Shown here piece after piece: positions 39,794 through 60,594 of a stretch of DNA of 64,000 nt. Location: the NCBI GenBank assembly GCA_903919315.1, contig CAIXHP010000030.1, positions 1 through 64,000 of the forward strand, written 5' to 3'. The notes under the pieces are model-generated. The model was not told where the DNA came from and made no database searches. It saw only the letters and a program-made list of their open reading frames with translations. Position numbers and translations under genes: made by a program. The stretch comes from an uncultured Pseudomonadota bacterium (GTDB lineage: Bacteria > Pseudomonadota > Alphaproteobacteria > UBA9219). How positions within the stretch are numbered: the stretch's first letter is position 1; the number at the start of each line of letters is the position of its first letter.

Positions 39794-40528
39794 TTAGGTC
39801 TCTTCCATAAATTTGAATTCAATTGAATATTTTTTTAACGTCAATGTAGGAACCACGCGAGCTGCCGCTTTGGTGCGTTTGTCGAAATCACTAGCGACAA
39901 TAATGCCGCGCACCTGCTTACCATTTTCTTCCTCTTGCACATCGCCCATGTAGCCTAAAATCTGGCCAATAACCTTGCAATCTGTTTTGCCAGCCTTGAG
40001 TTCAACGACAACGATGCCGTTTCCGTCTGCGCACGTTATGTCGATAAATCCTGAATTTACGGCTCGCTCTGCGCCATCGTCGATGATTTTCAAAGAAGGA
40101 TCGAGACTGGCAATGTTCTGCCGCAACGCGGCCTGCATATCTCGCTCCAGCGTAAATCTTTGCTTGGCGGATTCATCTTCAGAAGGCAGCTCTAATTTCT
40201 CGCATGCGTCCTCTGTATTGGACGGCATTCTATCAAAACCATCGTCCTTCAGGAATTTTTGATAGCGCACGACGGCGTTCTTGTAAGATTGGAGGTTGTT
40301 ACGAATATTCCCTTCAAACTTAATCTTTGACGGATTAGGTTTGTTGGCTCTTTCATCATCCGCGGAATATTTCAGCTGATCGATGACTCCTTGGTAAGTG
40401 CCATCCGCATCATGCTTGTCGAGGCTTCCGTAGCATTCCTCCACCTTCTTGACCCGATGAATTTGCGCTACTTGCGTGTTCTCCGCGTATTTTTGTTCGG
40501 CAAGCCATGTTGGATAATCTTGACGCAT
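39794..40528 (-). CDS. NucS/PD-(D/E)xK nuclease-like protein
   Basis: This 244-residue protein has an N-terminal helical domain (1-120) and a C-terminal nuclease-like domain: LERDMQAALRQNI, GFIDITCADGNGIVVVELKAG with D...ELK catalytic pattern, and KVIGQILGYMGDV. The latter resembles archaeal/actinobacterial NucS (EndoMS) and DUF-type restriction nucleases. It is likely a cargo nuclease (defence or exclusion) since it is antisense to the late operon. Exact substrate unknown. Confidence 0.75.
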   Translation of the reverse strand: MRQDYPTWLAEQKYAENTQVAQIHRVKKVEECYGSLDKHDADGTYQGVIDQLKYSADDERANKPNPSKIKFEGNIRNNLQSYKNAVVRYQKFLKDDGFDRMPSNTEDACEKLELPSEDESAKQRFTLERDMQAALRQNIASLDPSLKIIDDGAERAVNSGFIDITCADGNGIVVVELKAGKTDCKVIGQILGYMGDVQEEENGKQVRGIIVASDFDKRTKAAARVVPTLTLKKYSIEFKFMEET

Positions 40529-40590
40529 TCGCTTCCCCTTGTGTTTTGCGCGATATTCGACGCTGTCAGACTACTTGATTTTCTTAAACC

Positions 40591-41166
40591 TCAGCAAGAC
40601 GAGCGCTTGTTGTGGCGAGGCGTTTTCCTTGAAGCATCTGCAGGACAATGATTGTTCAGCCATTTCTTCAAGGATCCCCATTCAACGGCGCTAATCGGGC
40701 AGACACGATGCCCGCGTCGCGCGCCGCTTAACCGCAAACCGAATTCTTCAGGCAGAATCTCGACGACAGGGCCAAAGCGCCATGCAGTTTCAAAGGCCAG
40801 CACGAATGCTCCGCCAAGATCGCGGGATATGTTCTTGGCTGTATGAGACGGATTATTGACCTGTTCGTAGGTTGTGCCTGACGGCTTGTAGATGTTGTCC
40901 GGCCTCTCCGACTTGCCCGGCCTTTTGGCGACGAAACGCGGTGCGTTCCAGTATTCGGCAAAGGTCATTTTCTCCGTCACAACCCCCGCCCAGCGAACGG
41001 CATGTGGTTCTGGCCCCAGCGTTTGTCCGGCGAAAGCGATCACCAAGTCGCCGGGCTGGGCATAAAGCCTGATCTTCGGCTTACAGATGGCAAGCGTCGT
41101 CATCGGCGCATCATAATTCGGGGCGCTGCCATCGTCGTTCACGATCACGTAGGAAAACACCTTCAT
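40591..41166 (-). CDS. Nucleotide modification associated domain 2 protein (Nmad2)
   Basis: About 191 residues from the ATG at 41166, which overlaps the Nmad3 stop (ATGA). KVFSYVIVNDDGSAPNYD, TLAICKPKIRLYAQPGDLVIAFAG and a C-terminal Trp-Gly segment fit Nmad2, a domain defined from phage operons for hypermodified DNA bases. Biochemical role is unknown in the family. It is co-transcribed with Nmad3 and ends with a basic tail. Confidence 0.75.
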   Translation of the reverse strand: MKVFSYVIVNDDGSAPNYDAPMTTLAICKPKIRLYAQPGDLVIAFAGQTLGPEPHAVRWAGVVTEKMTFAEYWNAPRFVAKRPGKSERPDNIYKPSGTTYEQVNNPSHTAKNISRDLGGAFVLAFETAWRFGPVVEILPEEFGLRLSGARRGHRVCPISAVEWGSLKKWLNNHCPADASRKTPRHNKRSSC

Positions 41167-41984
41167 GCCGCCTCCTGAAACAGCGTGCGCAACCAAGCCA
41201 ACGCCTCACGACTGCCAGCAGGCTCCGCTATGAATTCCTGACCACGCGCCGCCGATTGTAGACCGCCGTCCGCATCCCATCTTTCCGGCGGATGGTACGT
41301 CATGCCAACACCGCCGCGTTGTGGATTCAGCCAGTCTGGCACCGTCCAGAGGCTTGGGCTTGCGTCTCCGGCGGAAAGCCGATGCCCCTTTCGAAACGTG
41401 CCCCAGCCGGGCAGCGAGGTTTTCTGTCCGTCGAGGATGAGTTGCTCTGACGCAATGTACAAAGCGTTACGCTGACACCAGCCGTCCCGCGCATGCGGAT
41501 GGTCGCGAAGCCATGGCCGGTCGCGCAAAACATGAGAGCCGTCACACCCGAGGTCGATGATGTCGCCGATTTGCAGCCATCCGAAAATTCTGTGCTCGCG
41601 GCTGCCGCTGTACGTCCATCGCTCCTGACGCAGGACAGGCCGAAATAGCCCCCAGAACAGGAACAGATCGCCCTTGGCGACGCAATTGTTGGCAAGGTGA
41701 GACTGCGCGGCAGCTACTTGCCCCAGACAACCGCGCCAATTTTCTAGTCGGACAAGGACGTTGGCGTTCAGGTCAGGATCAAGGTGGCAAGAGGCCGTCC
41801 GTTTGATCCTTCCGCGCGTCAGATCTTCGACCAGATCTCCGTAATCGCCGGTCAAATCCGCGTAACGCAACGCTGACGGCATGCGCGTCGGGATGGGAAG
41901 CGACACGGGCCTGCCGTCAATGATTGGGCTAGGGCAGCCCCCGGCTGCGCTGTCGAACCCTTTGCGGCTGAAAATGATGCGCAC
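41163..41984 (-). CDS. Nucleotide modification associated domain 3 protein (Nmad3)
   Basis: About 273 residues if read from the GTG at 41984 (an ATG at 42032 would add a basic leader). RIIFSRKGFDSAAGGCPSPI, GDLFLFWGLFRP, HRIFGWLQIGDII and WGTFRKGHRLS fit Nmad3, again from base-hypermodification neighbourhoods. Together with Nmad2 it forms a two-gene minus-strand unit. The known partners (TET/JBP oxygenases, glycosyltransferases) are not seen in this window. Confidence 0.75.
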   Translation of the reverse strand: MRIIFSRKGFDSAAGGCPSPIIDGRPVSLPIPTRMPSALRYADLTGDYGDLVEDLTRGRIKRTASCHLDPDLNANVLVRLENWRGCLGQVAAAQSHLANNCVAKGDLFLFWGLFRPVLRQERWTYSGSREHRIFGWLQIGDIIDLGCDGSHVLRDRPWLRDHPHARDGWCQRNALYIASEQLILDGQKTSLPGWGTFRKGHRLSAGDASPSLWTVPDWLNPQRGGVGMTYHPPERWDADGGLQSAARGQEFIAEPAGSREALAWLRTLFQEAA

Positions 41985-42129
41985 GCGAGCTTTCTTTCGT
42001 TTTCTCAATCTTGAGCGATCCCCCCACTTCAATACCTGACTTTCAGCATCCCTTCAAGAAATCGGGAAGGGAAATCTCTGTCTTCAGCTTCCCCAACACC
42101 GTCCCAACCTGCAAAAGAGGAGAGTAGCC

Positions 42130-43295: not shown

Positions 43296-44690
43296 TCATC
43301 CTGGAGTCAGTCGATTATCACGAGAGGAAACCGTTTTCCGGGATCGCTCCAAAAAATCCGCCTCGGAAGAGGCAGAAAGCATACCACAAGTTACGGAAAT
43401 GATATCACCATTAGCATCTCGTCCGAATACAGCAGGCTCGCCGACACACCTGTACCCACTGGCCTGATCTGATATATATTCCTGACCTCGTTTCTCAAAA
43501 AGCATGGCCCTGTTACAAGGCGACCATGTGTCGACATCCAGCATCAAGGCTCGATCATTTCCAACAATCCAAATGGCAGATCCCCAACAATTAGAAAGCG
43601 GCAATGAAACTGAAACTTTGTCTAAAGCGCAGAAGGTTGTTTCAACCAGCTTGTACATCTCAGCTATCCCTGCGATTGCTCCAAAAGCAGCGGGTTCATA
43701 CGTGTTCAAAATAAAACTGAAGATGTAGTCCGTTCCGTTCCAAAGCCGTGTTTCTGCGGTAAATCCCGGAAAACTCCCGGAATGACCGATCAAATATAAA
43801 TCTCCCGCTTGGTCGTGTCGAAGGGCGTATCCATATCGTTCATTTTGTGAGTTTTTGACAGGCCAACTGGTGCTTAATAGCATTTGCTGGGTATCCGTGC
43901 GCAGAAGTCGGTCACCCGCCAAAAACTCGTGAAGGAACAGACTGGCGTCTCCCGCCGTTGAACAAAACCCCGTTGCGACCGCCATGGCGTTCGTTGCTAC
44001 ATGAATGAATGGTTTGCGCTCACCATCATATATAGGGCGACTGTGTCCATCCGCCATCTGGCCGTCCAAATCGGTGGTATAATCGGGATGCGTATGTGAT
44101 AAGCCAATTTTTTCTATGACGTTTTCCCGCACCCATTTTTCGTAAGAGCTTCCTGAGGCGGCCTCTATAACTTCGCCCAGAAGGGAAAAACCCAAGTTTG
44201 AATATTTGCTGTCTCCCTGAGGCGCACAAATCAAATCCGACTGCAGAACGGCCTCGGCAAGAATCTCCCTAGATGGGAACGGTTGCTCAAGCCCCCAGAA
44301 CAATGGCTGGAAGCCATCGCGGTAAATGCCAGCTCTGTGAGAGACAAGATCACCTATGGTGATTTCCGCAAAGCGCTTGTCGCGGTGCGACGCCAGTTGA
44401 GGAATGTATTTAGTTACCTTGTCACCAAAATGCAGCTTGCCTTCGCGCTCCAACATCAACAATGCACAGCAAGTGAACATCTTGCTATTGGATGCCATCC
44501 GGCAGAGATGTTCCGTGGTCATAACGGTCTTGTTCTGGTTTCTCGCCGAACCGTAAGCCGTATTGAGTAGCGCTGTACCACTCTTGCGAATGCACAGTTG
44601 CCCTCCAACCAAGGGAGCGCTCTTGAAACGATAAGCAAGCCATTTGTCTACCGCATCAATAACTATGTTGTCATATGCGGATAATTTCAT
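43296..44690 (-). CDS. Serine hydrolase of the beta-lactamase/PBP4* family
   Basis: This 464-residue protein carries catalytic Ser-x-x-Lys in MASNSKMFT, the Tyr-Ser-Asn motif in KYSNLGFSLLGE and His-Ser-Gly in IGHSGSFPGF. The last ~120 residues form an extra C-terminal domain. There is no signal peptide, so it is cytoplasmic, unlike true beta-lactamases; such proteins are often D-amino-acid peptidases or esterases. Last gene of the seven-gene radical SAM operon; it may cleave a product of that pathway. Confidence 0.9.
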   Translation of the reverse strand: MKLSAYDNIVIDAVDKWLAYRFKSAPLVGGQLCIRKSGTALLNTAYGSARNQNKTVMTTEHLCRMASNSKMFTCCALLMLEREGKLHFGDKVTKYIPQLASHRDKRFAEITIGDLVSHRAGIYRDGFQPLFWGLEQPFPSREILAEAVLQSDLICAPQGDSKYSNLGFSLLGEVIEAASGSSYEKWVRENVIEKIGLSHTHPDYTTDLDGQMADGHSRPIYDGERKPFIHVATNAMAVATGFCSTAGDASLFLHEFLAGDRLLRTDTQQMLLSTSWPVKNSQNERYGYALRHDQAGDLYLIGHSGSFPGFTAETRLWNGTDYIFSFILNTYEPAAFGAIAGIAEMYKLVETTFCALDKVSVSLPLSNCWGSAIWIVGNDRALMLDVDTWSPCNRAMLFEKRGQEYISDQASGYRCVGEPAVFGRDANGDIISVTCGMLSASSEADFLERSRKTVSSRDNRLTPG

Positions 44691-44723
44691 ACTTTTGCCA
44701 CACTCACATCGATGTATGCATAT

Positions 44724-45209
44724 TTATGTCGCTTCCTTCCATCCGTATTCGCTGTACGGCTGGTTTCCCATTGATTTCAAGATCCCATCTCTAACGTAGC
44801 CGACCATGTTGGAAGGCAACTGAGCTTTAGGAAAAAAGCGCAACTCTCCACATTTGTGCGGCTCCTTATTGCAAATCTCATTCTTCCATGTGGCGCATGT
44901 ATAAAAGATGTCAATGGACTCTCGGTCTGGCGAAAACCGATGAGTCATGCATGAAAAAGTCAGATCCTTGGCTTCGATAAGAATCCCGGCTTCTTCCGCT
45001 GCCTCTCTTATCATTGCGCTCGTTGCGCTTTCCCCGCCATCCAGATGACCGGCCACTACACTGTAGTGCCCATCACAGAATCCGGTTCCTTGCCGCAGAA
45101 GCAAAAGAACCTCATCGTTTTTCTGAAGAACGAGATGAACCGCAACCGGCATCTTGAAGTATTTACTTGATGTGGAAAGAGTTTGCTGTTGCACATTGGA
45201 GGACATCAT
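44724..45209 (-). CDS. NUDIX hydrolase
   Basis: 161 residues from the ATG at 45209, chosen for its CGGAGG ribosome site and position right after the peptidase stop. The NUDIX box is complete: G-HLDGGE at its start and REAAEEAGI at its end, with the metal-binding glutamates. These enzymes cleave nucleoside diphosphates linked to another group. In this operon it could remove a toxic or modified nucleotide. Residues VHLVLQKNDEVLLLLRQG precede the box. Confidence 0.92.
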   Translation of the reverse strand: MMSSNVQQQTLSTSSKYFKMPVAVHLVLQKNDEVLLLLRQGTGFCDGHYSVVAGHLDGGESATSAMIREAAEEAGILIEAKDLTFSCMTHRFSPDRESIDIFYTCATWKNEICNKEPHKCGELRFFPKAQLPSNMVGYVRDGILKSMGNQPYSEYGWKEAT

Positions 45210-45210
45210 A

Positions 45211-46191
45211 TTACATCCTCCGCTTTTTGGCGAGTTCATCCGTTGCCCTTATGGTAGCATCCAGCGTCCCAAGTTCGTTATACGCATGGCCTGCATTCGG
45301 AACGATAACAAACTTGGACGAAGGCCAATTCTTGTGTAACTCCCATGCGGTGGTGGGGGGACAAACAACATCGTAACGTCCTTGGATAATTATGCCAGGA
45401 ATCCCTGTCAGCTTCTTGGCATTGCGGATCAATTGCCCATCCTTCATAAACCCGTTGTTGATGAAGTAATGGTTCTCTATCGAAGCAAATGCTAAGGCAA
45501 ACTCGTCTCTAGATTCGTCAATTTTGTATTCTCCCTTTGGGATAAGACACAAGGTTTCGCCTTCCCAATCCGACCAAGCTCTGGCTGCCTCGATTCTTGT
45601 CTTTTTATCTTTAGAGGCCAAACGTTTTTTGTAGGCGTGCATTATGTTCTTGCGTTCCGACGATGATAGAATTCTGACAAAACGATCCCATGCTTCAGGA
45701 AACAAGAAAGAAGCCCCCTCCTGATAGAACCACTCCAGCTCTTTTTTGCGTAGTGTAAAGATACCGCGCAAAACGAGGCCGGATACATGTTTAGGGTACT
45801 TTTCGGCATAGGCCAGCGCAAGACCACTTCCCCAAGAACCGCCCAAAATGACCCAGTTCTCGATATTAAGAAGGCGACGCAGCTTTTCCATATCCGCGAC
45901 AAGGTGCTGGGTCGTATTAGCCTCCAGACAATTATATGGCGTGCTTCGCCCACAACCACGCTGGTCGAAAAGAACGATGCGGTACTTTTTAGGGTCAAAA
46001 AGGCGCCGGTGATCTTTGCCGCATCCGCCACCGGGGCCTCCATGCAGAAATATGGCGGGGCGGCCCTTAGGATTACCGCACACTTCCCAATACACTTTGT
46101 GTCCATCGCCAACGTCCAACATACCGTGATCGAATGGTTCTATTTCTGGATAAAAGGAACGAAGTTGAACGTTTTGTTTGAGCTGGGTCAT
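45211..46191 (-). CDS. pip: Prolyl iminopeptidase-like alpha/beta hydrolase
   Basis: 326 residues with the full S33 peptidase pattern: HGGPGGG, DQRGCGRSTP, catalytic Ser in GGSWGSGLA, Asp in QGRYDVVCP and His in NAGHAYN. It releases N-terminal proline (or alanine) from peptides and conjugates. The start overlaps the upstream deaminase gene by ATGA. A Xanthomonas enzyme of this type is known to de-alanylate the nucleoside antibiotic ascamycin, which is relevant beside an alanyl-tRNA-synthetase-like gene. Confidence 0.93.
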   Translation of the reverse strand: MTQLKQNVQLRSFYPEIEPFDHGMLDVGDGHKVYWEVCGNPKGRPAIFLHGGPGGGCGKDHRRLFDPKKYRIVLFDQRGCGRSTPYNCLEANTTQHLVADMEKLRRLLNIENWVILGGSWGSGLALAYAEKYPKHVSGLVLRGIFTLRKKELEWFYQEGASFLFPEAWDRFVRILSSSERKNIMHAYKKRLASKDKKTRIEAARAWSDWEGETLCLIPKGEYKIDESRDEFALAFASIENHYFINNGFMKDGQLIRNAKKLTGIPGIIIQGRYDVVCPPTTAWELHKNWPSSKFVIVPNAGHAYNELGTLDATIRATDELAKKRRM

Positions 46192-46742
46192 GGCGAGGGT
46201 ATATCCTGAGGGGGTCTAGAGGTAGGAGTGCCCCTTGTGGGGCCTTTCATAAACTTAGATACTTCTGGATCACTGTGGCAACTATATCCAGCATCGTAAG
46301 TTTTAGCATTACCCATATTACACCAAAAAGATATTTGGCCTATCCGCATGTATGGGTAAATCTTGAATGGTTGCGCCGCGACGATTTCAAGCGTCCACTG
46401 ATGGCACGATCCGGTGTGCCCTAAGTTTGCTGATACTTGCAAAAAAAGTCCCAGCCTACCTAGAGAGCTTCGCCCAATAAGTGACATGGCATATTCTTTG
46501 CTGCCTAATGTCTCGAGAGTATGCCCCAGATAGGTCTGGTGCGGCTCAAGAACAAACCCTTCCTCAGGGAGCGAGATCTCTTTAAAACCTTGCGTCTCGT
46601 CCTCGGTAAATTGAGGGACAAGAAGCTTTGGCCCCAATCGATAGTTGTAGCTATTTGGGTTTATCTGATCCTCGTTGAACGGTTCAATAGTTATGTCCCC
46701 CGCATGAACCATTCGTTTTATTTCTAGACCAGTTAGAATCAT
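46188..46742 (-). CDS. dCTP deaminase-like protein, copy 1
   Basis: This 184-residue protein belongs to the dCTP deaminase/dUTPase fold: MILTGLEIK start, GRSSLGRLGLF and MRIGQISFW. The catalytic-glutamate position is retained (WTLEIVA, as in LEFYN of E. coli Dcd). The loop that is DPGWSG in E. coli is changed to HTGSCHQ, so substrate may differ. Residues after 150 are a Pro/Thr-rich tail. Coupled by ATGA to the peptidase gene. Confidence 0.85.
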   Translation of the reverse strand: MILTGLEIKRMVHAGDITIEPFNEDQINPNSYNYRLGPKLLVPQFTEDETQGFKEISLPEEGFVLEPHQTYLGHTLETLGSKEYAMSLIGRSSLGRLGLFLQVSANLGHTGSCHQWTLEIVAAQPFKIYPYMRIGQISFWCNMGNAKTYDAGYSCHSDPEVSKFMKGPTRGTPTSRPPQDIPSP

Positions 46743-46759
46743 GATCTTCTCACATATAA

Positions 46760-47845
46760 TTATGGCTGCGGGGCACTTTGCGTCAGTGTTCGATTAAGCT
46801 TTCCTCTATCAGGTGAGGAATTTGCCTTGAGAAGGCGGTAATCCTCAACATACTTTGCTACAAAAGCACCGGCATCTGATCTTACTCCCAGACTGCATTG
46901 CTCAAAGCTTTCCGCCGCGATTTGAAGTGTTTCTGAGCTAATGTTCGTCCGCGGCTGCAATTCCGCAATCCCTTGAAGATAGCGACGAAGCACTCTTCCA
47001 CGGTTGGTCGCCACCGGCCTAATTCCTGCGTTCAGGATGAGTGTGCTGGCAGCCAAGGCATCAGCAATCTTAGATTCTTCGACGGTGTCTGTGGGAAGAA
47101 ACTCTGCCATGGGAGCCGCGTGAATGGGCGTAGGGACACCCAACATTCTACTTATGGCAGTTTCAACGCCATACGCCATCTCAACGGCCAGTTTTTTGTG
47201 GTCAGTTTCGACGACAATTATGTTTCCAATGTCTCTGTATTCCTCAGAGCTAGGGCCTTGAATGGCAATGTTACAGTTGCGACCCCGAACGCCATCAATT
47301 CCATATTTGTGGGTATAATATACAGGATCCTTGGTATCAAAAACCAAATGCTGCTCTAGACCAGCTGCCTTCCAAAAACGAATTATGTCTTTATCTGAAC
47401 TGGCGATGTGAACTTTGATTTTATCTTGATCAAGGCCTAGTCGTTGCGTCAAGAACGACCAGAAAAGTGCTGATACCTTGTCTAAATCAGCGTACTGAGA
47501 CAAAGTGCCTGTGCTCATAAAGGCAGAAGACCAGCGAGGAACAAATGCCTCGTCTTGAATTGTCATAGCGTTCTGCGTTCGTAGGCATTGCTGCACCATG
47601 AAAACACCTTGAGGAGGGATTCGCTCTTCCATAAAAACGGGTTTCAATGTGCTTATTGTTGATCCTGTAAAAAGAACGGTCGCGTCTGTCTCTGGAACTA
47701 AACTTCCCGGTGGATACTCTGACAAACCTGCCTCAAGAAAATGTCCTCGAAACTCTGAGCAAAACGCATCGCGCAAAACTCGGATCTGCGCTTTATCGGC
47801 TGGACTGGCTATGGCAGTTTTGAGTTGTCTATTGAACATTTTCAT
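46760..47845 (-). CDS. Alanyl-tRNA-synthetase-like catalytic-domain protein
   Basis: This 361-residue protein aligns in order with the class II catalytic core of AlaRS: LRDAFCSEFRGHFLEAGL, SLVPETDATVLFTGSTISTLKPVF, VQQCLRTQN (motif 2), YGVETAISRMLG and GIRPVATNRGRVLRRYLQGI. It lacks the anticodon-like, editing and C-Ala domains of a true AlaRS (about 870 residues), so it probably does not serve translation. It may activate alanine or a similar acid for transfer to a small molecule. It lies 3 bp after deaminase copy 2. Confidence 0.8.
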   Translation of the reverse strand: MKMFNRQLKTAIASPADKAQIRVLRDAFCSEFRGHFLEAGLSEYPPGSLVPETDATVLFTGSTISTLKPVFMEERIPPQGVFMVQQCLRTQNAMTIQDEAFVPRWSSAFMSTGTLSQYADLDKVSALFWSFLTQRLGLDQDKIKVHIASSDKDIIRFWKAAGLEQHLVFDTKDPVYYTHKYGIDGVRGRNCNIAIQGPSSEEYRDIGNIIVVETDHKKLAVEMAYGVETAISRMLGVPTPIHAAPMAEFLPTDTVEESKIADALAASTLILNAGIRPVATNRGRVLRRYLQGIAELQPRTNISSETLQIAAESFEQCSLGVRSDAGAFVAKYVEDYRLLKANSSPDRGKLNRTLTQSAPQP

Positions 47846-47848
47846 GAT

Positions 47849-48397
47849 TCATGGCTCCGGGTTTGCTAGTTTTTCGCTTTTCTTTAAGTCTCGATAAACT
47901 TCCGATGATCGCGGACCATTGGCTCCTTGGTATTTGCCTTTGTAAAGTTCGATTTCTCCCTTGGGTACCCAGAATGACACCTGTCCAACAAGCATGCCCG
48001 GATACAATTTAATCGGTAGTGTTGCGTAAAGTTGGAAGGATAAGTTTCCATGCATCCCCAAGTCTACAAGATCTGCGGTCACATGAACAAACAGACCCAA
48101 CCGGGCAATGCTGGATCGAGCGTGGATGATAGGAACAAAATAATCACTGCCTATGATTTCGGCAGTATGTCCGACAAGAAAATCCCCTTTCTTCATAACA
48201 ATGCCCCGCTCATCCGCGATTATTTCGCGGTATTCAGGAGGCACTTTGGGGTCGATAACGGAAGATGTGTACTGGACGAACCTATTTCCCAATGCAAGAT
48301 CGTATGAGTTTGTTGTGGCTCGCTCAGGATGAAATGGCTGTATATCGATCTTTCCTAAGTTCCACTGATTAATAATTTCTTTTCCGGTCAAAATCAT
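47849..48397 (-). CDS. dCTP deaminase-like protein, copy 2 (Glu-to-Gln variant)
   Basis: This 182-residue protein has the MILTGKEI start, HARSSIARLGLFVHVTADLVD, HGNLSFQLYA and PGMLVGQVSFW. It is closer to canonical Dcd than copy 1 overall, but the catalytic Glu of the LEFYN motif is replaced by Gln (FQLYA). It may bind rather than deaminate, or form a mixed trimer with copy 1. Position: second gene of the operon, 75 bp after the radical SAM gene. Confidence 0.87.
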   Translation of the reverse strand: MILTGKEIINQWNLGKIDIQPFHPERATTNSYDLALGNRFVQYTSSVIDPKVPPEYREIIADERGIVMKKGDFLVGHTAEIIGSDYFVPIIHARSSIARLGLFVHVTADLVDLGMHGNLSFQLYATLPIKLYPGMLVGQVSFWVPKGEIELYKGKYQGANGPRSSEVYRDLKKSEKLANPEP

Positions 48398-48472
48398 AAA
48401 GTCACCTCAGAAGATCTTTTAACGATAAAGCAGCTCTCTGGAGGGCGCAGAACGCCCCCCAGACTGCCCCAA

Positions 48473-49603
48473 TTATCCACAGTTACAGCCAGTCCCCTTC
48501 TTGCAGGCCGGTGGCTGAATATCTTTTCTCCGATCCTCCCATTTGAGTTTTTCAGTCCAAACAGGTTCGTCCTGCTTTGGCTTAAACGAAACGCAGAGAG
48601 GAACGTATTTGCCAAAATGCTTGCCCTTATGCTGATTGGTGCATGGTGTATCGGTATCCATGTTGTGCCCCAATATCTCATTCGTCGGAGTATCGTTCCA
48701 ATACATGCGGTTCTGATCGAAAAAGCCCACACAATACGGAGAACCAATCATCAGGGAGCAAACGCGCAGCATTCCATTCGGAAACGCTAACACGCGATCA
48801 TACTGCTTAACTGAACAGTAGCCGTAGTATTCCTTGTTTCTCTCGAATTCTTCCTGAACCGTGAAACACTGCGGCATGCGAATCGAAATATCCTTCTCCG
48901 TAGCCTTGTGGTCGAGCACCGCCGTATATGCCTGCATATAATCTTCAAGTGATGTGCTGACGTCGCCAGACCAGATGTCACGTGGAATTCCAGCCTTGAA
49001 AAGGTCATGCATATTGAGAGTCCTAACGCCCAACCCCTTCATAAAATCAACCATCCGAAGAATGCCCAACCTACCTTCATCGGACTGAACAAGATCCTTA
49101 TGCACACAGCTCGTCACGTGGACTTTGTACCCTTTTTCGATGGCTCTCTTGATGTTTGCCACACAATTCTTATAGGAATTCTTTCCGCGAACAGCATCGT
49201 TCATTTCTTCGGTGTATCCATCCAAGCTGAAGGTAATCTCGTCCAGCTTACGGAAATTAGGATTATCCAACATTGTTGGCTTGAACATGCCGTTTGTGTC
49301 GATCCTGACATAAGTGTAGCCAATTCTCTTTGCTTCAGCGATCAAGTCCGGAAGCTTTTCATAGAGCGTTGGCTCGCCACCCATGAACGTCATTTTTCGT
49401 GCGCCCAGCTCATGAAGGTTTTCCATCAGCGCTACGGCTTGCGGATACGGGATTTCTTTCTGAGCCAACTGGAACGTCAGTTCTGATTTGTACAAACACT
49501 GCACACAACTTAAGTTGCAGGAGTCGGTTAAATACAAAAAGGCCTGCCCAACTCGGCCATTGAATTTTTCTACGAATTTTGGATCCATAACCATCGCACT
49601 CAT
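48473..49603 (-). CDS. Radical SAM enzyme
   Basis: 376 residues from the ATG at 49603 (GGAAGGAAAGACA before it); upstream ATGs lack such a site. CNLSCVQC is the [4Fe-4S] CxxxCxxC motif, followed by the SAM-contact GGEPTLYE, and TNGMF. C-terminal cysteines (CSVKQ, RVCSL, CTNQH, LCVSF, CKKGTGCNCG) suggest SPASM-type extra clusters. It makes a 5'-deoxyadenosyl radical for a difficult conversion; the substrate is unknown, perhaps a nucleotide or peptide. It heads the operon. The motif context does not match viperin. Confidence 0.92.
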   Translation of the reverse strand: MSAMVMDPKFVEKFNGRVGQAFLYLTDSCNLSCVQCLYKSELTFQLAQKEIPYPQAVALMENLHELGARKMTFMGGEPTLYEKLPDLIAEAKRIGYTYVRIDTNGMFKPTMLDNPNFRKLDEITFSLDGYTEEMNDAVRGKNSYKNCVANIKRAIEKGYKVHVTSCVHKDLVQSDEGRLGILRMVDFMKGLGVRTLNMHDLFKAGIPRDIWSGDVSTSLEDYMQAYTAVLDHKATEKDISIRMPQCFTVQEEFERNKEYYGYCSVKQYDRVLAFPNGMLRVCSLMIGSPYCVGFFDQNRMYWNDTPTNEILGHNMDTDTPCTNQHKGKHFGKYVPLCVSFKPKQDEPVWTEKLKWEDRRKDIQPPACKKGTGCNCG

Positions 49604-49795
49604 TGTCTTTCCTTCCATTGAAATTACGCCATGCGCGCATATTTGCGCCAACATTGTATTCACTGTGCAAATAAGGCGCTCACCTTAGTTCAGCGTGCTT
49701 ATCTGCTTCAAGTTTTAAATGTTTGTGACAACTCAATACATGTTCGCCTCCAGTTAAGGTTAATGTGTATCTTTCATGCGGCGCACAGGAACACC
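49604..49795 (-). promoter_or_regulatory. Leader/promoter region of the radical SAM operon
   Basis: This AT-rich 192-bp gap lies between the LuxR-type gene and the radical SAM start. It contains a very strong GGAGG site followed by a two-codon frame ATG-TAT-TGA (minus strand, 49733-49741) and a five-codon frame upstream of it. No peptide precursor of convincing length is present. The region may hold the LuxR-type protein's binding site. Confidence 0.35.
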
Positions 49796-50176
49796 TTATT
49801 TCGAAGGGGCTCGGCGTTTTCTCTTAACCGATATAGCCCCGCTGTCGATTAATAGCGAACCTGTGCTCTGCGGAATATTCCCCTTTTGGGGGATATTTTT
49901 ATTATTCTCTCGCACTTGATTTTCTGCAGGCTTAAAAAAGCTTGGTTTGATCAGACCAAGCGATAACGCGATGATTGCGGCATGCGTTTTATTATTTGCA
50001 CTTAACTTGCGACATACTTGTTCTATATGAGCCTTAACAGTCTCCTTTGAAATTCCAAGAATTTCAGAAATCTCACCACGTGTCTTTCCGTATGCAGTGA
50101 GCGTTATAACTTCGACCTCACGCTTGGTGATTTTATTTGTTGGCTTCTGCCATATTTGAAGAATTATTTTTTTCAT
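49796..50176 (-). CDS. LuxR/GerE-type HTH regulator
   Basis: 126 residues. Residues 15-80 are a GerE helix-turn-helix (TKREVEVITLTAYGKTRGEI, LGISKETVKAHIEQVCRKL). There is no N-terminal receiver or ligand domain; the C-terminal ~45 residues are a basic disordered tail (KRKRRAPSK). Its start codon follows directly on the upstream stop. It is on the same strand as, and upstream of, the radical SAM operon, its likely target. Confidence 0.85.
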   Translation of the reverse strand: MKKIILQIWQKPTNKITKREVEVITLTAYGKTRGEISEILGISKETVKAHIEQVCRKLSANNKTHAAIIALSLGLIKPSFFKPAENQVRENNKNIPQKGNIPQSTGSLLIDSGAISVKRKRRAPSK

Positions 50177-52151: not shown

Positions 52152-52391
52152 TCAATTCACAATTTTACTAATCTTAAAATCGACGAGAAAATCTAAGGCA
52201 TCCTGAAAACAAGTATCTGGAATGGCCGTGACCTCCTTCACATCGAACCTTGCCGCGAGCATGTCGCAGATCGTCAGCGAGTCTATGCTCTGTTCTGTCG
52301 CAACTGACGCGATCATCGCGCTCAACGACCGCAATGCGCAGGCGCTTATGGGAAGACAGTTCGTATTATTGTCTTTGCTTGCCGTCAGCAT
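52152..52391 (-). CDS. Small protein of the paralogous family (copy R3)
   Basis: This 79-residue protein lacks the N-terminal extension of the other copies and consists of the shared C-terminal region: LRSLSAMIASVATEQ, TICDMLAARFDVKEV, FQDALDFLVDFK and a final IVN. It may be a minimal form of the family. Starts 6 bp inside the end of the short XRE gene. Confidence 0.72.
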   Translation of the reverse strand: MLTASKDNNTNCLPISACALRSLSAMIASVATEQSIDSLTICDMLAARFDVKEVTAIPDTCFQDALDFLVDFKISKIVN

Positions 52392-52749: not shown

Positions 52750-53115
52750 TTAATTCATGACATCTTGAACGCGCAAATCGACCAGATAGCGGATGGCCTC
52801 GTCGTAATAGCCACGCGGCAAAGCTTTCACGTCTTTGACTTCGAAAGCGGTGGCGAGCATCTCGCAAACAATCTGTTCGCTGGCATTCTGCGAATAGGCC
52901 ACATACGAAATCACGGAGGTGACGGCTTTTAACTCAGACTGGTTGAGCGGCTCATCATGGGCAATGATCGCCGCATTAAGGTCGTCAGTGATATCGGACG
53001 CTGCCATGGCGTTGCTAGCGGGCCACATCAGATCATCGTTATTATTGCTGGCATTGAGGCTTTCTGCCTCGATACTCGGTTGATCAAAATTAATCTTAAT
53101 TTGCGACTTGGCCAT
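52750..53115 (-). CDS. Small protein of the paralogous family (copy R1)
   Basis: 121 residues from the ATG at 53115; an upstream ATG at 53163 lies inside the neighbour. The C-terminal half (LNQSELKAVTSVISYVAYSQ, IVCEMLATAFEVKDVKALP, YYDEAIRYLVDL, VMN) is the closest match to copy L1. The N-terminal half is acidic and Asn-rich. Same operon position as L2 in the left module. Function unknown. Confidence 0.78.
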   Translation of the reverse strand: MAKSQIKINFDQPSIEAESLNASNNNDDLMWPASNAMAASDITDDLNAAIIAHDEPLNQSELKAVTSVISYVAYSQNASEQIVCEMLATAFEVKDVKALPRGYYDEAIRYLVDLRVQDVMN

Positions 53116-53137
53116 GGGACAGCTCCGATTTAAAGGG

Positions 53138-53323
53138 TTAGGCGGCAATCGCCGATACAGCATTCATGGCGTCCTGCGCACGCATTGCTCTTTGGAGCCG
53201 TTCTTCGTAATCAATCCCAGCCATCAGCCAAGAGGTGATCCCGGCTGCCTTTTCAATGTCCAGCAGCAACTGGTAAGCTCCGGGAGCGCCATATCTCATT
53301 TCAAGTCCGTGAAAAGTAAGCAT
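53138..53323 (-). CDS. Small hypothetical protein, first gene of the R operon
   Basis: 61 residues from the ATG at 53323 with GGAG six bases before it; in-frame upstream codons lack a site. Helical (YQLLLDIEKAAGITSWLMAGI, ERLQRAMRAQDAMNAVSAIAA). It corresponds in position to 944-1150 on the left. Similarity is weak, so shared origin is only suggested. Confidence 0.6.
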   Translation of the reverse strand: MLTFHGLEMRYGAPGAYQLLLDIEKAAGITSWLMAGIDYEERLQRAMRAQDAMNAVSAIAA

Positions 53324-54245: not shown

Positions 54246-55331
54246 ATGCTAAGCAATAATGAAGCTCTGCACCTCATCCCGTCCATGGAGTTTTTTGAAC
54301 AGAGTGTCGATCTGTGGATGGGGTTCGCCTCAGGTCATATGGGGCCACAAATGTATCAGCACCACACTGGAGTGCGTGGTAAACAATCTTTATCAGGCGT
54401 ATATACTTGGGATGAGCATGCAAAATGGGGCAGCCTCCCCAACCTTTGTAGAACATCTTTGAACACTTACCTCCCTGAAGTTGCCAAAGCTGCGGAGAAG
54501 GGACTGCCGATCGTTGAATTCGGCCCCGGTGGATTGCATGAAGCGAAAAAATTGATCGAAGCCTTCCATTGCAAGGAATACAAGCCTGTTGATTGCAGTT
54601 TAGAAATTTATGATATGGCATCACAGTTCGCAAAAACTAACAATGATTGCCGCGTAAACCCAATTATTGCTGACTTCTTTTCGGGGGATAATGGGGCTTT
54701 TGTTGATTCTCCTGCGCTTGGGGTTCAGCTTGGATCTACGATTAGCAATATACCAGGACCTGTCCCCGCACTGCTGCCGCACCACCATTTAGTTCAAGCT
54801 TTAAAGAACTTGATTAAGACAATTCCCTTTGGAGGACAGCTATTTATTCAAGTTGATACCTGCCAAGACGAAAAACGTAATGTCGCGTTTTATAGTGAAC
54901 CTTGGCACAAGCTTTTTGGCGTTAATCATATCTACAGAATGGCAGAAGAGCTGCCGATGAATAATTTTGATCCCAACGGTTTTGAGTATTTTCCTATATG
55001 GCACCAATCATGCAGCCTCTTGGCTCATACGGTTCGCGCGGTTCAGGATCAAGAATTCCAGATGGGCATTTTAGGGGAAATAAATGTCCGTGTGAAAAAA
55101 GGCGAAATCTTTCACTACAACAATTCCTATAAATATCCATCTGACTTTTTTGAGGCATGTGCTGCAGAAGCAGGGTTAACTCTGATTAGCAAATGGGGTG
55201 ATGAGGTCTTGCTATATTTATTCGACGTTCCAGCCGTTTCTTGCAATTCGCAAACTATATCAAAACGATTTCTAGCCTCTGCTATTTCCCACAAAAAGAA
55301 TGACGCAGCAGGTTCCCGAATTATACGCTGA
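54246..55331 (+). CDS. EgtD-like SAM-dependent methyltransferase
   Basis: This 361-residue protein has VEFGPGGLHEAKKLIEAF (SAM-binding loop), YKPVDCSLEIYDMA, PIIADFF, QLGSTISNIPG and LFIQVDTCQDE, the order seen in the histidine N-alpha-methyltransferase (EgtD/DUF2260) family. Substrate may be an amino acid or a modified histidine. It is co-directional with the XRE regulator and probably controlled by it. Identity of substrate is not visible; a role in a conjugate or signal molecule is possible. Confidence 0.78.
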   Translation: MLSNNEALHLIPSMEFFEQSVDLWMGFASGHMGPQMYQHHTGVRGKQSLSGVYTWDEHAKWGSLPNLCRTSLNTYLPEVAKAAEKGLPIVEFGPGGLHEAKKLIEAFHCKEYKPVDCSLEIYDMASQFAKTNNDCRVNPIIADFFSGDNGAFVDSPALGVQLGSTISNIPGPVPALLPHHHLVQALKNLIKTIPFGGQLFIQVDTCQDEKRNVAFYSEPWHKLFGVNHIYRMAEELPMNNFDPNGFEYFPIWHQSCSLLAHTVRAVQDQEFQMGILGEINVRVKKGEIFHYNNSYKYPSDFFEACAAEAGLTLISKWGDEVLLYLFDVPAVSCNSQTISKRFLASAISHKKNDAAGSRIIR

Positions 55332-55449: not shown

Positions 55450-56469
55450 ATGTTACTGCACGATAAGGTAGCCCAACTCAGGAAAACACGTGAACAAGCT
55501 GGAATTCCTCCCGTTCCAACAACGCTGCAAGGCGTTTCAAAAGAACGCGTCCGCAAAGTTCTTACCCAACTAACATTTGGCAGCAACCAAGACTTAGTAG
55601 ATGTTGTCTTTGCGCTTTTGGACAACCAAACTGACAGCTGGTTTGACAAGCCTCCAAAAGATGCGCACTTTTGCGACGGAGCATCGACAGCACATCTTGC
55701 ATGTCATGTCGGCATTTTACAACGCAATGCCGGGAAGTTGGACAGGGAAGGAAGAGATTATTGGATAAAACCGCTGCGCGAGCTGGGTGGGATAGAGCCG
55801 ATCTATCTCTTCGAGGATAGCTTTATAGACGGTCACCAAAGAGCAAAATCACCAAATTGTGCTTACAGACTTTCTCAGGATTTTAAAGCAATCTTACAGG
55901 CCTCTGCGGATCAATGGGGGCGCATGCTAAACGCATGGAACAATAAAGACGCTGCTCGCGCTCGGCTTGAGTTCCAAGCCAAGGCAGCCGCCGCTGCTCA
56001 ACAGCTTATTGGAACATCCGGGCATAGCTCCCTGATACAGGCATCAGTAAGTTTCTATGCGAAGCAGTTTCTCCCCGGCTACAAAATCATATATGTCGAT
56101 GACGGAGATGGGGATCGCATAACCGATGAGGATCGCTCCCGCTTAAAGGAAGCGGGCATTGAACTGCGCCTTGCGGACGCTATGCCCGACGCATTACTTT
56201 GGAATCCTGCAACGGACTGGTTATGGGTTATCGAGGCCGTTACGAGCGATGGAGAAGTTGACCTTCATAAGAAAAAGCAATTGGAGAGTTTGTGCGCGCG
56301 TTGTGGAAAAGCAGGGATTGGCTTCACCACTAGTTATCGCACTTGGAAGGAAGCTGCAACGCGCCAAGGCAAATCACCAAACATTGCAGTCGACACTTAC
56401 ATCTGGATTCAAGAAGACTCGTCTAAACACTTTTTTGTGGCTTCATTTCCGCAAGAAGCGTCTCGATAA
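55450..56469 (+). CDS. BsuBI/PstI-type restriction endonuclease
   Basis: This 339-residue protein has an N-terminal helical domain (RKVLTQLTFGSNQDLVDVVFALL) and a C-terminal PD-(D/E)xK domain with GHSSLIQASVSFYAKQFLPGYKI, MPDALLWNPATDWLWVIEAVTSDGEVD and a following Lys; VDTYIWIQED closes the domain. This is the BsuBI/PstI family, which cuts CTGCAG in known members. Its stop overlaps the convergent methyltransferase gene by 47 bp. Confidence 0.92.
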   Translation: MLLHDKVAQLRKTREQAGIPPVPTTLQGVSKERVRKVLTQLTFGSNQDLVDVVFALLDNQTDSWFDKPPKDAHFCDGASTAHLACHVGILQRNAGKLDREGRDYWIKPLRELGGIEPIYLFEDSFIDGHQRAKSPNCAYRLSQDFKAILQASADQWGRMLNAWNNKDAARARLEFQAKAAAAAQQLIGTSGHSSLIQASVSFYAKQFLPGYKIIYVDDGDGDRITDEDRSRLKEAGIELRLADAMPDALLWNPATDWLWVIEAVTSDGEVDLHKKKQLESLCARCGKAGIGFTTSYRTWKEAATRQGKSPNIAVDTYIWIQEDSSKHFFVASFPQEASR

Positions 56470-57976
56470 TGGAATCCACTGCTTCTTGCGTTGTAGGGAC
56501 TCTACCGCAACCGCGCCCAATACGTTCAAGTTGTGCGCGGTCGGGATAACGTAAATTTCGCAAGTCTGTCGCATTGACCTGTGTGTGCCCACTAAATTGG
56601 CGGAAATAGCCGTCCACAGCAGAAGAGTTGAGAAACAAACAAAGCCCTAGAGCAAGATCAGGCGTAAGTCCGTGACCATTCTCATGAAAATAATTCAAAT
56701 GGTTCTCAAAACCAATGAGTTCTCCCGGCACACTTTCAGGATCAAATATGACGGCGACAAGACGTCTTTTTTCTTCCTTAGAGGTAAATCGTTTTGTTAG
56801 AACGTAAATACCGCGTGGAACCATCAAATCAGAAGTCGATGCATTCGACGCCAATGCGTTTGGCTTCCGGCCACCTTTCTTAGGCCAAGAAACATATCCT
56901 TGCTCAAAATGGCACGGATAAATAAGCGGAACAGCATCAGAATCAGGATTTAACCGCAGATGTTCTTTTGCCCTGAAATCCACGACACGTCCTGTGGATA
57001 CATTAATACCCAGATCACGAAGTGAGCATGGCAAGGTTATAATTTTATGGGCTAGGTCACGACCTGCTTCAGTGACTGTGAGATGGATGTAGCTATGTGA
57101 ATCATCGTGATGAACCACTTCTCCATATGGCACATCGCGTACAATCATATTTATGTCTTGCGGACAGCTATTAGAGGTAATTCGAACCGTTACGGGTTGT
57201 GGCTCAGACTTTACCAGTTTGAAAATTATATTCTCCTGAAGAACATCATCATCAGAAAAAGCTCTGCGCCGCGATTCGTAAAGGTGCACACTTTCTAGTG
57301 CCGAACACTCCAGCATGAAATGTCGGAACGGTTCGAAATAAGACCCATTACAGAAACTACGAGGGGTAATTGCTACCATTTGTCCTTTCTGTTCAAGCTG
57401 TAGCAATGCGAAAGCAACAAAAGCTGTGTAAAGATTGCTCGTCTCTATGCCAATGCGCCTTAACGCACTTCTCGTATTTGATTTGCTATTTATCTTGGCA
57501 TAAGGAGGATTGAGTATGGCACAATTATATTTCAATCCTTCTGATGGTTGAGAAATAAGAGGCTCTGCTGAATGAAGAATGTAATCGTCGCGGATTATTT
57601 CGTACTTAAAATCTATGCCTGACACTTGGCATTGCGCTTCGCACGCCATCAGTGTCATTTCGAGCAAATCACTTAGGGTTTTGTCGACCTCGAAAGCAGT
57701 GACATTGATTTCCTCCGGAGGGGTACGCAGGAGGCAGGCTTCATTCACAAACGCAGCGGTTAGTGTGCCGACTCCCGCCCCGGCATCAAGCAACCGCACT
57801 ACTTTTGGAAGGGTTGTAAACCTTTTTGCCATAAAAGTGGCAACAGGGGCAGGAGTCATGAACTGTCCCAATTTACTCCGAATATCAGCATCAAGTTTGG
57901 CAGAAATCATGATGCGTGCCATATCAGCTTGTGCAAGTGCTGACGTTTCCTCGTCTTCTTTTAAGGCTGCATACAT
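56423..57976 (-). CDS. Adenine-specific DNA methyltransferase (BsuBI/PstI RM partner)
   Basis: 517 residues with RSKLGQFMTPAPVATFMA, SAM motif LLDAGAGVGTLTAAF, catalytic NCAILNPPYAKIN and a long C-terminal target-recognition region. Gamma-class N6-adenine methylase like M.PstI. It protects the DNA that the convergent nuclease would cut. The tail-to-tail arrangement with overlapping ends suggests balanced expression. Confidence 0.93.
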   Translation of the reverse strand: MYAALKEDEETSALAQADMARIMISAKLDADIRSKLGQFMTPAPVATFMAKRFTTLPKVVRLLDAGAGVGTLTAAFVNEACLLRTPPEEINVTAFEVDKTLSDLLEMTLMACEAQCQVSGIDFKYEIIRDDYILHSAEPLISQPSEGLKYNCAILNPPYAKINSKSNTRSALRRIGIETSNLYTAFVAFALLQLEQKGQMVAITPRSFCNGSYFEPFRHFMLECSALESVHLYESRRRAFSDDDVLQENIIFKLVKSEPQPVTVRITSNSCPQDINMIVRDVPYGEVVHHDDSHSYIHLTVTEAGRDLAHKIITLPCSLRDLGINVSTGRVVDFRAKEHLRLNPDSDAVPLIYPCHFEQGYVSWPKKGGRKPNALASNASTSDLMVPRGIYVLTKRFTSKEEKRRLVAVIFDPESVPGELIGFENHLNYFHENGHGLTPDLALGLCLFLNSSAVDGYFRQFSGHTQVNATDLRNLRYPDRAQLERIGRGCGRVPTTQEAVDSIIETLLAEMKPQKSV

Positions 57977-58255: not shown

Positions 58256-59542
58256 ATGCTCTCCATTTTTACAAAACCTTTGGAGCAAATCACCGCCGAT
58301 GATCTGACAGAACTGACCAGTAAGAAATGGTCAGAAAATTTTCAGGTCGAATATAAGAAAACACTCCCCGACAAGAATGCAGAGCGCTCTTCATGGCTAA
58401 GCGGAGGAGATAAGATCACCGATGCAGCCAGAGACAAGCTTTTTTCGGAGATTATAGCTTTCGCAAACTCAATGGGAGGAACGCTCATCCTTGGAATAGA
58501 GGAAACGCTTGATAAACCTCCTAGAGCAGAGGGCATCAACCCCATTCCACGTGTCGGCGATTTGGCTAGTCGCCTTGAAGATATGGCAAAGTCAGTTATT
58601 GATCCTATTCTGCCGAACCTACAAATTTGGCCTATTGAGGTGAATCACGACGACAAGTCAGGCGTAATCATTTTTAGAGTACTCCCGTCACGACGCGCCC
58701 CTCACCGCTTAAAAACAACAGGACGCTGTTATATACGCAATGGCACCAGCTCACAGGAAATGGATATGCGCCAAATCCAAGATATGACGCTAAATGTTGC
58801 GCGTGACCTTGCCGGTATCGATAAGGTATTTCAATCACGCCAAGAGGCATTTCATAAATGGGGAACTATACGGAAACGCATGGCCGCTGTTCGTGTAACG
58901 GCTATTCCGTTGCTCGAAGTGCCCGATCTCGGCAGATTATACGGCAACAGGAAGCTCTTTCACTTTGACCCTAGCTGTACAGTTACGTTGAGAGGACAGC
59001 AGCACGCCATTTGTCTGCAACAAACCGATTTTTCCGAACGCCCCGTACTGCGCGGGATTTGTCGCAATGGAGACAGTCTTATCTCGCCATACCGTTATGA
59101 AATGTATCAAAATGGAGCAATAGATCTCTGGGCTGGGAACTCTCCATATGACAATCCTGCATACACGCCGCCGCAGTCCCAAAATGATCTCTATATCTAC
59201 CACTCTACTGTTTTGTCGTGTGTGGCTGGAGTGATCAAGGCTGTGCACCACTTGCGCACCGAGATTGGTATGCCAGATGCCGAATATGGCCTCGAAGTTG
59301 AGATTATGGCGTTTTCTGATACAGCAGTTAAACAACCGATCACATATGAGTACCTAGAGGGCCAAACAATTCCCCCCTATATAAAAAAGCCTGTTTTTTC
59401 AGATTTGCCCTTTGTCCTCCCTCGAATGCAGGTCGCGGGTGTAAAAGACTCTCCTCAAATCATAGACTTAGTCGATAAAGACATCTACGATGCACTTGGT
59501 GTGAAAGATGAATGGAAGTCGCTGTGCGCTCAAAATCTATAG
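58256..59542 (+). CDS. AlbA_2/Schlafen-domain protein
   Basis: 428 residues. N-terminal region 28-130 matches an AlbA_2 (Schlafen) domain: WSENFQVEYKKTLP, LFSEIIAFANSMGGTLILGIEE and FRVLPSRRAPHRL, with CYIRNGTSSQEMD following. The C-terminal ~230 residues are unassigned. Such proteins occur near defence genes and may bind or cut RNA. It is the last gene before the right attachment-like repeat. Confidence 0.85.
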   Translation: MLSIFTKPLEQITADDLTELTSKKWSENFQVEYKKTLPDKNAERSSWLSGGDKITDAARDKLFSEIIAFANSMGGTLILGIEETLDKPPRAEGINPIPRVGDLASRLEDMAKSVIDPILPNLQIWPIEVNHDDKSGVIIFRVLPSRRAPHRLKTTGRCYIRNGTSSQEMDMRQIQDMTLNVARDLAGIDKVFQSRQEAFHKWGTIRKRMAAVRVTAIPLLEVPDLGRLYGNRKLFHFDPSCTVTLRGQQHAICLQQTDFSERPVLRGICRNGDSLISPYRYEMYQNGAIDLWAGNSPYDNPAYTPPQSQNDLYIYHSTVLSCVAGVIKAVHHLRTEIGMPDAEYGLEVEIMAFSDTAVKQPITYEYLEGQTIPPYIKKPVFSDLPFVLPRMQVAGVKDSPQIIDLVDKDIYDALGVKDEWKSLCAQNL

Positions 59543-59607: not shown

Positions 59608-59645
59608 GGAGCATGTTCAAACCCAGTCACGTTCCCTCCGCCATT
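59608..59645 (+). repeat. Right attachment-like site (copy 2 of split direct repeat)
   Basis: GGAGCATGTTC (59608-59618), ten variable bases, then ACGTTCCCTCCGCCATT (59629-59645). Both blocks and the spacing are identical to 4989-5026; the ten central bases differ. It lies between the last cargo gene of element A and the recombinase cassette of element B. Confidence 0.6.
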
Positions 59646-59796
59646 ATTCAAATAAAAACATTCTCATAACTTTTTCGACCACCGTCATTTAGCCCTTATT
59701 CCGCAGGGTTTTTCGCACATAGCTGTAAACATGAGCGATCCTTTTCCTCCCCCAAAACACCCTGTTTTTCTCCTGAAAAGCCCTATCTCCTGAGAA

Positions 59797-60158: not shown

Positions 60159-60594
60159 GCTTTTAGCCAAAATCGCCGCATTACAAACAATGCCTTTCAA
60201 TCAACTGAAAAAGCTCTGGCGCGAAGTTTACGAGACCGATCTTCCCAGCCTTAATCGCAAATGGATTGTCAGCAAGTTGGCGTACCGCATTCAGGAGCTG
60301 GCCTTGGAAAAGGAAGTCGGCTCCTTGGAGCAGCGGCTCGATGCCCTGGCCAAAGTTCGCCTCGGCAACGATCTGAAAAAAGAGCGCAAACGCCCAATCC
60401 ACCGTCCGCTGACAGGAACGCGCCTCATCCGCGATTATGGCGGCGTCGAATATCAGGTCACGGTTCTGGCCGATGGCTTTGCCTTCGATGGCCGCAAATA
60501 CAAAAGCCTTTCGCGCATCGCCCAAGTCATTACCGGCAAAGCATGGTCAGGCCCCGCGTTTTTCGGATTGGTCGGCAAGAAAGGCGCAGCATGA
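60142..60594 (+). CDS. DUF2924 protein of recombinase cassette B
   Basis: 150 residues. MPFNQLKKLWREVY, SKLAYRIQELALEK, TGTRLIRDYGG and GRKYKSLSRIAQVITGKAW are clear DUF2924 motifs shared with 7019-7468. It ends in ATGA overlap with the recombinase. Likely accessory to recombination. Confidence 0.92.
   Translation: MTMNNELLAKIAALQTMPFNQLKKLWREVYETDLPSLNRKWIVSKLAYRIQELALEKEVGSLEQRLDALAKVRLGNDLKKERKRPIHRPLTGTRLIRDYGGVEYQVTVLADGFAFDGRKYKSLSRIAQVITGKAWSGPAFFGLVGKKGAA

Follow-up and report, generated by a model that had tools for sequence, protein, structure and literature searches.

A conserved operon of twin dCTP-deaminase-like proteins and an alanyl-tRNA-synthetase-like protein, with a possible role in making an aminoacylated pyrimidine nucleotide

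What might a radical SAM enzyme, two relatives of dCTP deaminase (Dcd), a truncated relative of alanyl-tRNA synthetase (AlaRS) and three hydrolases do together in one operon? This combination is found in a 64,000-nucleotide stretch of DNA (the window; contig CAIXHP010000030.1, assembly GCA_903919315.1) from the 2.4-Mb genome of an uncultured, gut-type alphaproteobacterium (G000). Seven open reading frames (ORFs), all on the minus strand, occupy 43296–49603, and the gaps between them, in order of transcription, are 75, 3, 17, −4, −29 and 33 bp. A reading of the letters made without database searches (the sequence-only reading) had described seven minus-strand genes here with short gaps and overlaps, and had assigned each to a family. 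The ORF coordinates and spacing bear out this layout, and Pfam and NCBIfam matches support all seven assignments, with the correction that the two Dcd-like proteins, Dcd1 and Dcd2, are not ordinary dCTP deaminases. That the operon is real is hardly in doubt. The tentative reading offered here is that six cargo genes, joined by an accessory seventh for a hydrolase, encode a pathway for a modified pyrimidine nucleotide that carries an aminoacyl group.

The comparison set for G000 consisted of 59 relatives, and one of these (G001) has a true ortholog of the AlaRS-like protein, with 75% identity. The locus L017 belongs to the metagenome-assembled genome Lab288P4bin16, an alphaproteobacterium of a different genus in the same family; L017 and G001 are taken as one genome, as match length, identity and gene order agree. 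Recurrence in conserved order was the check that the sequence-only reading had set itself, and it came out in its favor: the genes for the radical SAM protein, Dcd1, the AlaRS-like protein, Dcd2, a prolyl iminopeptidase (PIP) and a NUDIX hydrolase follow one another identically in L017, with near-identical spacing (68, 3, 17, −4 and −22 bp). Since six of the seven genes recur in this way, the operon is more than a chance assembly. The seventh, a serine hydrolase, had no match in L017, so that the proposed seven-gene set holds for six; the serine hydrolase is accessory, outside the conserved core.

The six shared proteins are 69–87% identical between the window and L017 (radical SAM 70%, AlaRS-like 74%, NUDIX 69%). 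Synonymous differences are near saturation (pS 0.68–0.91) while non-synonymous differences are few (pN 0.085–0.21; 0.165 for the AlaRS-like gene, with a pS of 0.776), so that selection maintains each of the six proteins. Across 385 alphaproteobacterial genomes and in viral contigs no other ortholog of the AlaRS-like gene was found; the genome_contigs scan relied on exact peptide patterns and therefore picks up close relatives only. Neither the AlaRS-like protein nor the radical SAM protein nor Dcd2 has a relative in the viral contigs. Plasmid matches to the AlaRS-like protein were ordinary alaS genes where annotated, and phage matches were weak (24–32%) and unannotated.

The twin Dcd proteins

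The two Dcd proteins have Pfam DCD scores of 108 and 110 bits, and share fold, length, the RSS..R motif and family PF22769 with the dCTP deaminases of E. coli (1XS1) and M. tuberculosis (2QXX, 4XJC). Against the dCTP deaminase model TIGR02274 (cut-off 92.8 bits), Dcd1 scores above the cut-off (107 bits) and Dcd2 below it (71.5 bits). Residue numbers here follow E. coli Dcd, to which the proteins were aligned. In that enzyme Glu138 acts as general base and the sugar 3'-OH is held by the Asp of motif 3; the aromatic residue that follows this Asp packs under the deoxyribose and disfavors ribose, and the C-terminal tail shuts over the phosphates. The canonical combination of Glu138 and Asp128 is absent from both operon proteins. 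Dcd1 has Asp128 and the tail (GKYQG), but its catalytic Glu138 is replaced by Gln; Dcd2 has Glu138 and an H..W motif (HQW), but Asp128 is replaced by His and the closing tail is lost.

The same division of residues is found in every other twin pair. All 33 distinct Dcd1-type sequences have Asp128 with Gln138, and all 35 distinct Dcd2-type sequences have Glu138 with His, Asn or Gln at position 128, nearly always together with His133 and Trp135. The sequences were sorted by the 128/138 pattern itself, and a tree served as an independent check: the same two sets form single clades, with support of 91/89 (Dcd1-type) and 100/98 (Dcd2-type). In both clades the window and L017 group with Rhizobium, the actinomycetes are next, and an alphaproteobacterial order of small genomes stands apart, a pattern explained by a single ancient duplication, after which both copies were inherited together. 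None of the twin sequences has an aromatic residue at position 131, where all 26 other aligned Dcd-family sequences have Trp or Phe. The GKYQG-like tail is kept in the Dcd1-type proteins of the window and the plasmids and lost in the Dcd2-type proteins there. Intermediate forms are found in L041 and in Paenibacillaceae, and Embleya (L046) has an apparent Dcd2-Dcd1 fusion remnant.

The twins are very likely a co-inherited, functionally altered pair. Complementary active-site losses in such a pair make plain dCTP deamination unlikely. With no aromatic side chain beneath the sugar in either protein, the substrate is more likely to be a ribonucleotide, or a nucleotide with an altered sugar, than dCTP; the pair, judged by its residues, would not be an ordinary dCTP deaminase and may favor such nucleotides. 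Each protein lacks a different feature of the active site, so a mixed oligomer of Dcd1 and Dcd2 is probable. The simple rebuilding of one canonical site by subunit mixing was considered and is not straightforward from what is known of the fold: Asp128 and Glu138 belong to a single motif within the same chain, and the closing tail alone could be lent across subunits. Literature searches for paired dCTP deaminases turned up no description of twins of this kind. A broader proposal, put forward with some reserve, is that the twins form a new and widespread heteromeric pyrimidine-nucleotide enzyme, in which the catalytic Glu of one ancestral deaminase and its sugar-binding Asp have come to lie in two separate, co-inherited subunits, and that this enzyme is the shared core of an uncharacterized class of nucleotide pathways in which the present operon would be the aminoacyl-tRNA-using form.

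Adjacent twin pairs are found on Rhizobium plasmids (54–58% identity) and, from a survey of plasmid records, on plasmids of the actinomycetes Streptomyces, Nonomuraea and Nocardiopsis. A Dcd2-type profile (A6) detected pairs in 26 of 50 genomes of the small-genome order, mostly of 0.7–1.6 Mb; a 27th gave a partial match. The gene order is Dcd2-Dcd1 in all pairs except those of the window and L017, where the AlaRS-like gene sits between Dcd1 and Dcd2. Most genomes tested in the small-genome order also carry a full-length canonical-type Dcd-family gene and a shorter dUTPase-like match, so that the twins are mostly additional to canonical Dcd and a replacement of canonical Dcd in genomes of about 1 Mb is unsupported. 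In two genomes with three matches each (G303 and G815), the twin pair and the shorter dUTPase-like match were seen and an extra full-length Dcd gene was not.

In L037, L038, L040, L042, L043, L044, L045 and L047, all plasmid loci, a gene for a class I methyltransferase comes after the pair. Other frequent followers are a cytidine-deaminase domain, a P-loop protein resembling kinases, a GalU-like nucleotidyltransferase, a glycosyltransferase and a radical SAM-like protein. NUDIX and aminoacyl-tRNA synthetase (aaRS)-like genes are also among the neighbors of twin pairs elsewhere; L039/L051 has, in addition, two radical SAM proteins, one protein resembling ProRS, one resembling LysRS/EpmA, and a member of the LD-carboxypeptidase family. 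By their gene content these plasmid clusters look like clusters for nucleotide-derived natural products. One actinomycete plasmid cluster recurs in L044, L045, L047 and L040, with twin Dcd, methyltransferase, GalU-like, radical SAM-like and glycosyltransferase genes, joined in L040 and L044 by a HAD gene.

The AlaRS-like protein, the radical SAM protein and the hydrolases

The AlaRS-like protein matches Pfam tRNA-synt_2c with 51.5 bits (8e-14) over residues 31–208. In an alignment with the AlaRS of ten genomes it aligns from the N-terminus through GRG.VLRR, with editing and C-Ala domains both absent. It retains both motif-2 arginines, the one in CLR and the second, as well as the GRG.VLRR helix. 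Lost are the GGKHNDL loop and the NFWxMGxTGPCGPCSEI block; HHTFFEMLG has become WSSAFMSTG, so that the two His and the Glu are gone; the motif-3 Arg is replaced by Thr, and the alanine-binding Asp (VDTG position) by Glu. It is highly probable that this protein is not a normal synthetase. An AlphaFold2 model built from two sequences reached a pLDDT of 46 and was not used.

A protein with similar anatomy is known from ascamycin biosynthesis (the AcmF/AcmD/AcmE system of Streptomyces sp. 80H647 / JCM9888). The acmF gene adjoins acmE and encodes a 370-amino-acid AlaRS-like protein, and AcmE is weakly homologous to a Xanthomonas aminopeptidase (PMC4257720). AcmF, like the protein here, is truncated to the aminoacylation and tRNA-recognition parts; its residues for ATP and alanine are lost, with the changes N219Q and D232E, and a review reports in-vitro proof that it alanylates dealanylascamycin from Ala-tRNA and that the hydrolase AcmE undoes this alanylation (PMC12945691). 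Both systems have eroded ATP and alanine sites, including an Asp-to-Glu change, and both include a radical SAM protein and an alpha/beta hydrolase, which in ascamycin removes the amino acid (PMC12945691, PMC4257720). Unlike the ascamycin cluster, the window operon has no sulfamate genes, second full AlaRS or transporter, and it has the twin Dcd and NUDIX genes; ascamycin is a purine nucleoside, whereas a pyrimidine is expected here. By analogy with AcmF, the chances that the AlaRS-like protein transfers an aminoacyl group to a nucleotide may be put at about even.

The operon PIP matches the prolyl aminopeptidase model TIGR01249 with 407 bits (cut-off 260), and matches PDB 1QTR with 413 bits and Xanthomonas 1AZW with 388 bits over its full length; the Ser-Asp-His triad motifs GGSWGS, GRYD and AGHAY align to 1QTR. 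A Xanthomonas member of this family, of which 1AZW represents the type, dealanylates ascamycin (PMC4257720); the PIP described here differs in being encoded inside the operon. Two further PIPs are encoded in the genome outside the operon. The radical SAM protein has the CxxxCxxC motif (CNLSCVQC) and further C-terminal cysteines, and its best NCBIfam models are far below cut-off: MoaA with 72 of 284 bits and viperin (NF038283) with 54.5 of 180. With the prokaryotic viperins (pVip) it shares the radical SAM core and a nucleotide context, but the sub-threshold match covers the N-terminal half only and the operon has no nucleotide kinase.

Two further parallels were noted. Microcin C-type and agrocin-type antibiotics are amino-acid–nucleotide conjugates with dedicated hydrolases, an idea shared with the reading of the operon given here, and the LD-carboxypeptidase-family protein beside an aaRS-like gene in the twin cluster L051 is a further resemblance; the window operon, unlike these, has no peptide precursor, MccB or exporter. 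Relatives of the radical SAM protein (28% identity) on Nocardia and Kitasatospora plasmids have another radical SAM gene and an additional GluRS as neighbors, but no Dcd, and are a loose parallel only. These plasmid clusters (L018, L019 and L022) contain two radical SAM genes, a nucleotidyltransferase and the extra GluRS, and in L018 an ORF resembling glutamyl-tRNA reductase lies beside them; another aminoacyl-tRNA-using pathway is possible there.

The proposed pathway and its alternatives

From the observed unity of the operon, its conservation and its residue patterns we infer a substrate, an order of steps and a product as follows. The twin Dcd proteins would bind and process a pyrimidine nucleotide as a mixed oligomer, in which Glu138 would come from Dcd2, and both the site of Asp128 and the tail that closes over the phosphates from Dcd1. 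The radical SAM enzyme would alter the base or the sugar. The AlaRS-like protein, not using ATP normally, would move an amino acid (alanine by analogy) from an aminoacyl-tRNA to the nucleotide, as AcmF does. PIP would strip the amino acid and NUDIX the phosphates, in maturation or self-protection. The sequence-only reading had proposed a modified, possibly alanylated nucleotide with built-in hydrolases, and this is still the best fit, given the AcmF anatomy (PMC12945691) and a PIP of the ascamycin-dealanylating family (PMC4257720). It has to be changed in two points: the Dcd proteins are a co-inherited pair for which plain dCTP deamination is unlikely, and the serine hydrolase lies outside the conserved core. 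If the pathway is as proposed, it would be a second case, in an unrelated context, of a protein related to AlaRS that has come to transfer amino acids to small nucleotides. The deaminase-fold pair, present in several lineages, is usually annotated as plain dCTP deaminase, and its residue pattern says otherwise; the pair can serve to search plasmids for cryptic nucleotide pathways.

Several observations weigh against this pathway. In all five genomes of the small-genome order that were read, the twin pair stands alone beside lnt with the other operon genes absent, so it can work without them. Genes for aminoacyl transfer are rare in twin clusters, the aaRS-like ones being confined to L039/L051. 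The parallel with AcmF is strong in kind, but AcmF was compared by its published description only, and of its two marker changes the D232E-type one is common to both, whereas at the position of N219Q the AlaRS-like protein still has Asn as aligned. PIP is also a common gene among the relatives, and the conserved six-gene set holds no transporter.

The location of the operon bears on the alternatives. Much of the region to its left, up to lysis genes at 42–43 kb, is taken up by genes of a phage (GpA terminase, lambda-type portal, tape measure and tail). A 43-nt direct repeat occurs at 4989–5031 and 59608–59650, with copies 79% identical, and its 17-nt core ACGTTCCCTCCGCCATT is found at these two sites only in the 2.4-Mb genome. 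The two copies may be the att sites of a prophage about 55 kb long, though a large serine recombinase (60261–61934) lies just beyond the right copy and so outside. Given the phage genes, the repeat pair and the recombinase, the operon probably rides in the cargo region of this prophage.

The main rival of the proposed pathway, which the sequence-only reading had also offered, is a prophage-borne antiphage system. It would detect infection and drain or poison the nucleotide pools, or produce a viperin-like chain terminator, with hydrolases limiting self-damage. The surroundings of the operon would suit this: the cargo region also holds the converging genes of a BsuBI/PstI-type restriction endonuclease and an Eco57I-like methylase (55450–57976) and a SLFN/AlbA_2 (Schlafen) protein (58256–59542), and the L017 copy is followed by ORFs that read as Vsr-like, cytosine-methylase-like and GHKL-type ATPase-like. 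At the level of families the support is missing. The best PADLOC match of the radical SAM protein is to viperin models, but its score is far below the NCBIfam cut-off and MoaA scores higher; Dcd1, Dcd2 and the AlaRS-like protein matched no PADLOC model. The twins are also chromosomal and alone in the genomes of about 1 Mb, most of which have canonical Dcd as well, and their plasmid neighbors look biosynthetic. Defense is an unlikely explanation.

Two other explanations are less probable again. The AlaRS-like protein could be a non-catalytic regulator, decoy or relic in an operon for salvage or housecleaning of damaged pyrimidine nucleotides, with a stray peptidase; its missing active-site residues, the housecleaning-type folds of NUDIX and Dcd and the solitary twins of small genomes would agree with this. 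The strong purifying selection on the AlaRS-like protein would not, nor would the locking of its gene between the two Dcd genes by gaps of 3 and 17 bp that are identical in L017, and the radical SAM protein and PIP have no known housecleaning role; we consider it quite improbable. The poorest chance is given to a prophage module for hypermodification of DNA (or tRNA), in which modified pyrimidine nucleotide precursors, aminoacylated on the base, would enter phage DNA. The region is a prophage, and genes for NucS_C, Nmad2 and Nmad3 (the last two nucleotide-modification-associated) lie in a row at 39794–42032 (−), adjoining the phage lysis genes, 1.3–3.5 kb from the operon and on the same strand. 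However, no Nmad genes were seen near the L017 copy, which adjoins an element bearing a MobA/VirD2-type relaxase and not phage genes; the operon has no kinase, polymerase or base-specific transferase; and the plasmid twin clusters have no evident phage modification genes.

Operon coordinates and further genes of the window

The G+C content of the operon is about 46–48% over most of its length, compared to about 55–62% in the neighboring phage genes. The radical SAM gene starts at an ATG at 49603, preceded by a AAGGAAAG-type ribosome-binding site.

Features of the operon, in order of transcription (positions in the window)
Feature	Position	Strand	Length and remarks
Leader between a LuxR-type HTH gene (49796–50176) and the operon	49604–49795	−	Probable promoter region, from sequence
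Radical SAM protein	48473–49603	−	376 amino acids; opens operon; Pfam Radical_SAM 69.7 bits
Dcd1-type twin deaminase-like protein	47849–48397	−	182 amino acids; Pfam DCD family match
Truncated AlaRS-like protein	46760–47845	−	361 amino acids; Pfam tRNA-synt_2c
Dcd2-type twin deaminase-like protein	46188–46742	−	184 amino acids; Pfam DCD family match
PIP, alpha/beta hydrolase	45211–46191	−	326 amino acids; TIGR01249
NUDIX hydrolase	44724–45239	−	171 amino acids; Pfam NUDIX 52 bits
Beta-lactamase/penicillin-binding-protein-fold serine hydrolase	43296–44690	−	464 amino acids; closes operon; Pfam Beta-lactamase 147 bits

A second aaRS-related oddity of the window is a 722-amino-acid protein (2037–4205, +) encoded behind an HTH-type gene. 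Its residues 479–667 are GlyRS-beta-like (Pfam tRNA_synt_2f, 2e-8), and no PDB relative of it was found. An EgtD-like protein of the histidine N-methyltransferase family (54246–55331, +; 84 of 291 bits) lies beside an XRE regulator. A family of small proteins with the motif SVISYVAYSQ or SMIAYVAHNQ and no Pfam match is encoded at 52750–53163, 52152–52391 and 596–922 of the window and at 7810–8181 of L017, where it is directly upstream of the operon.

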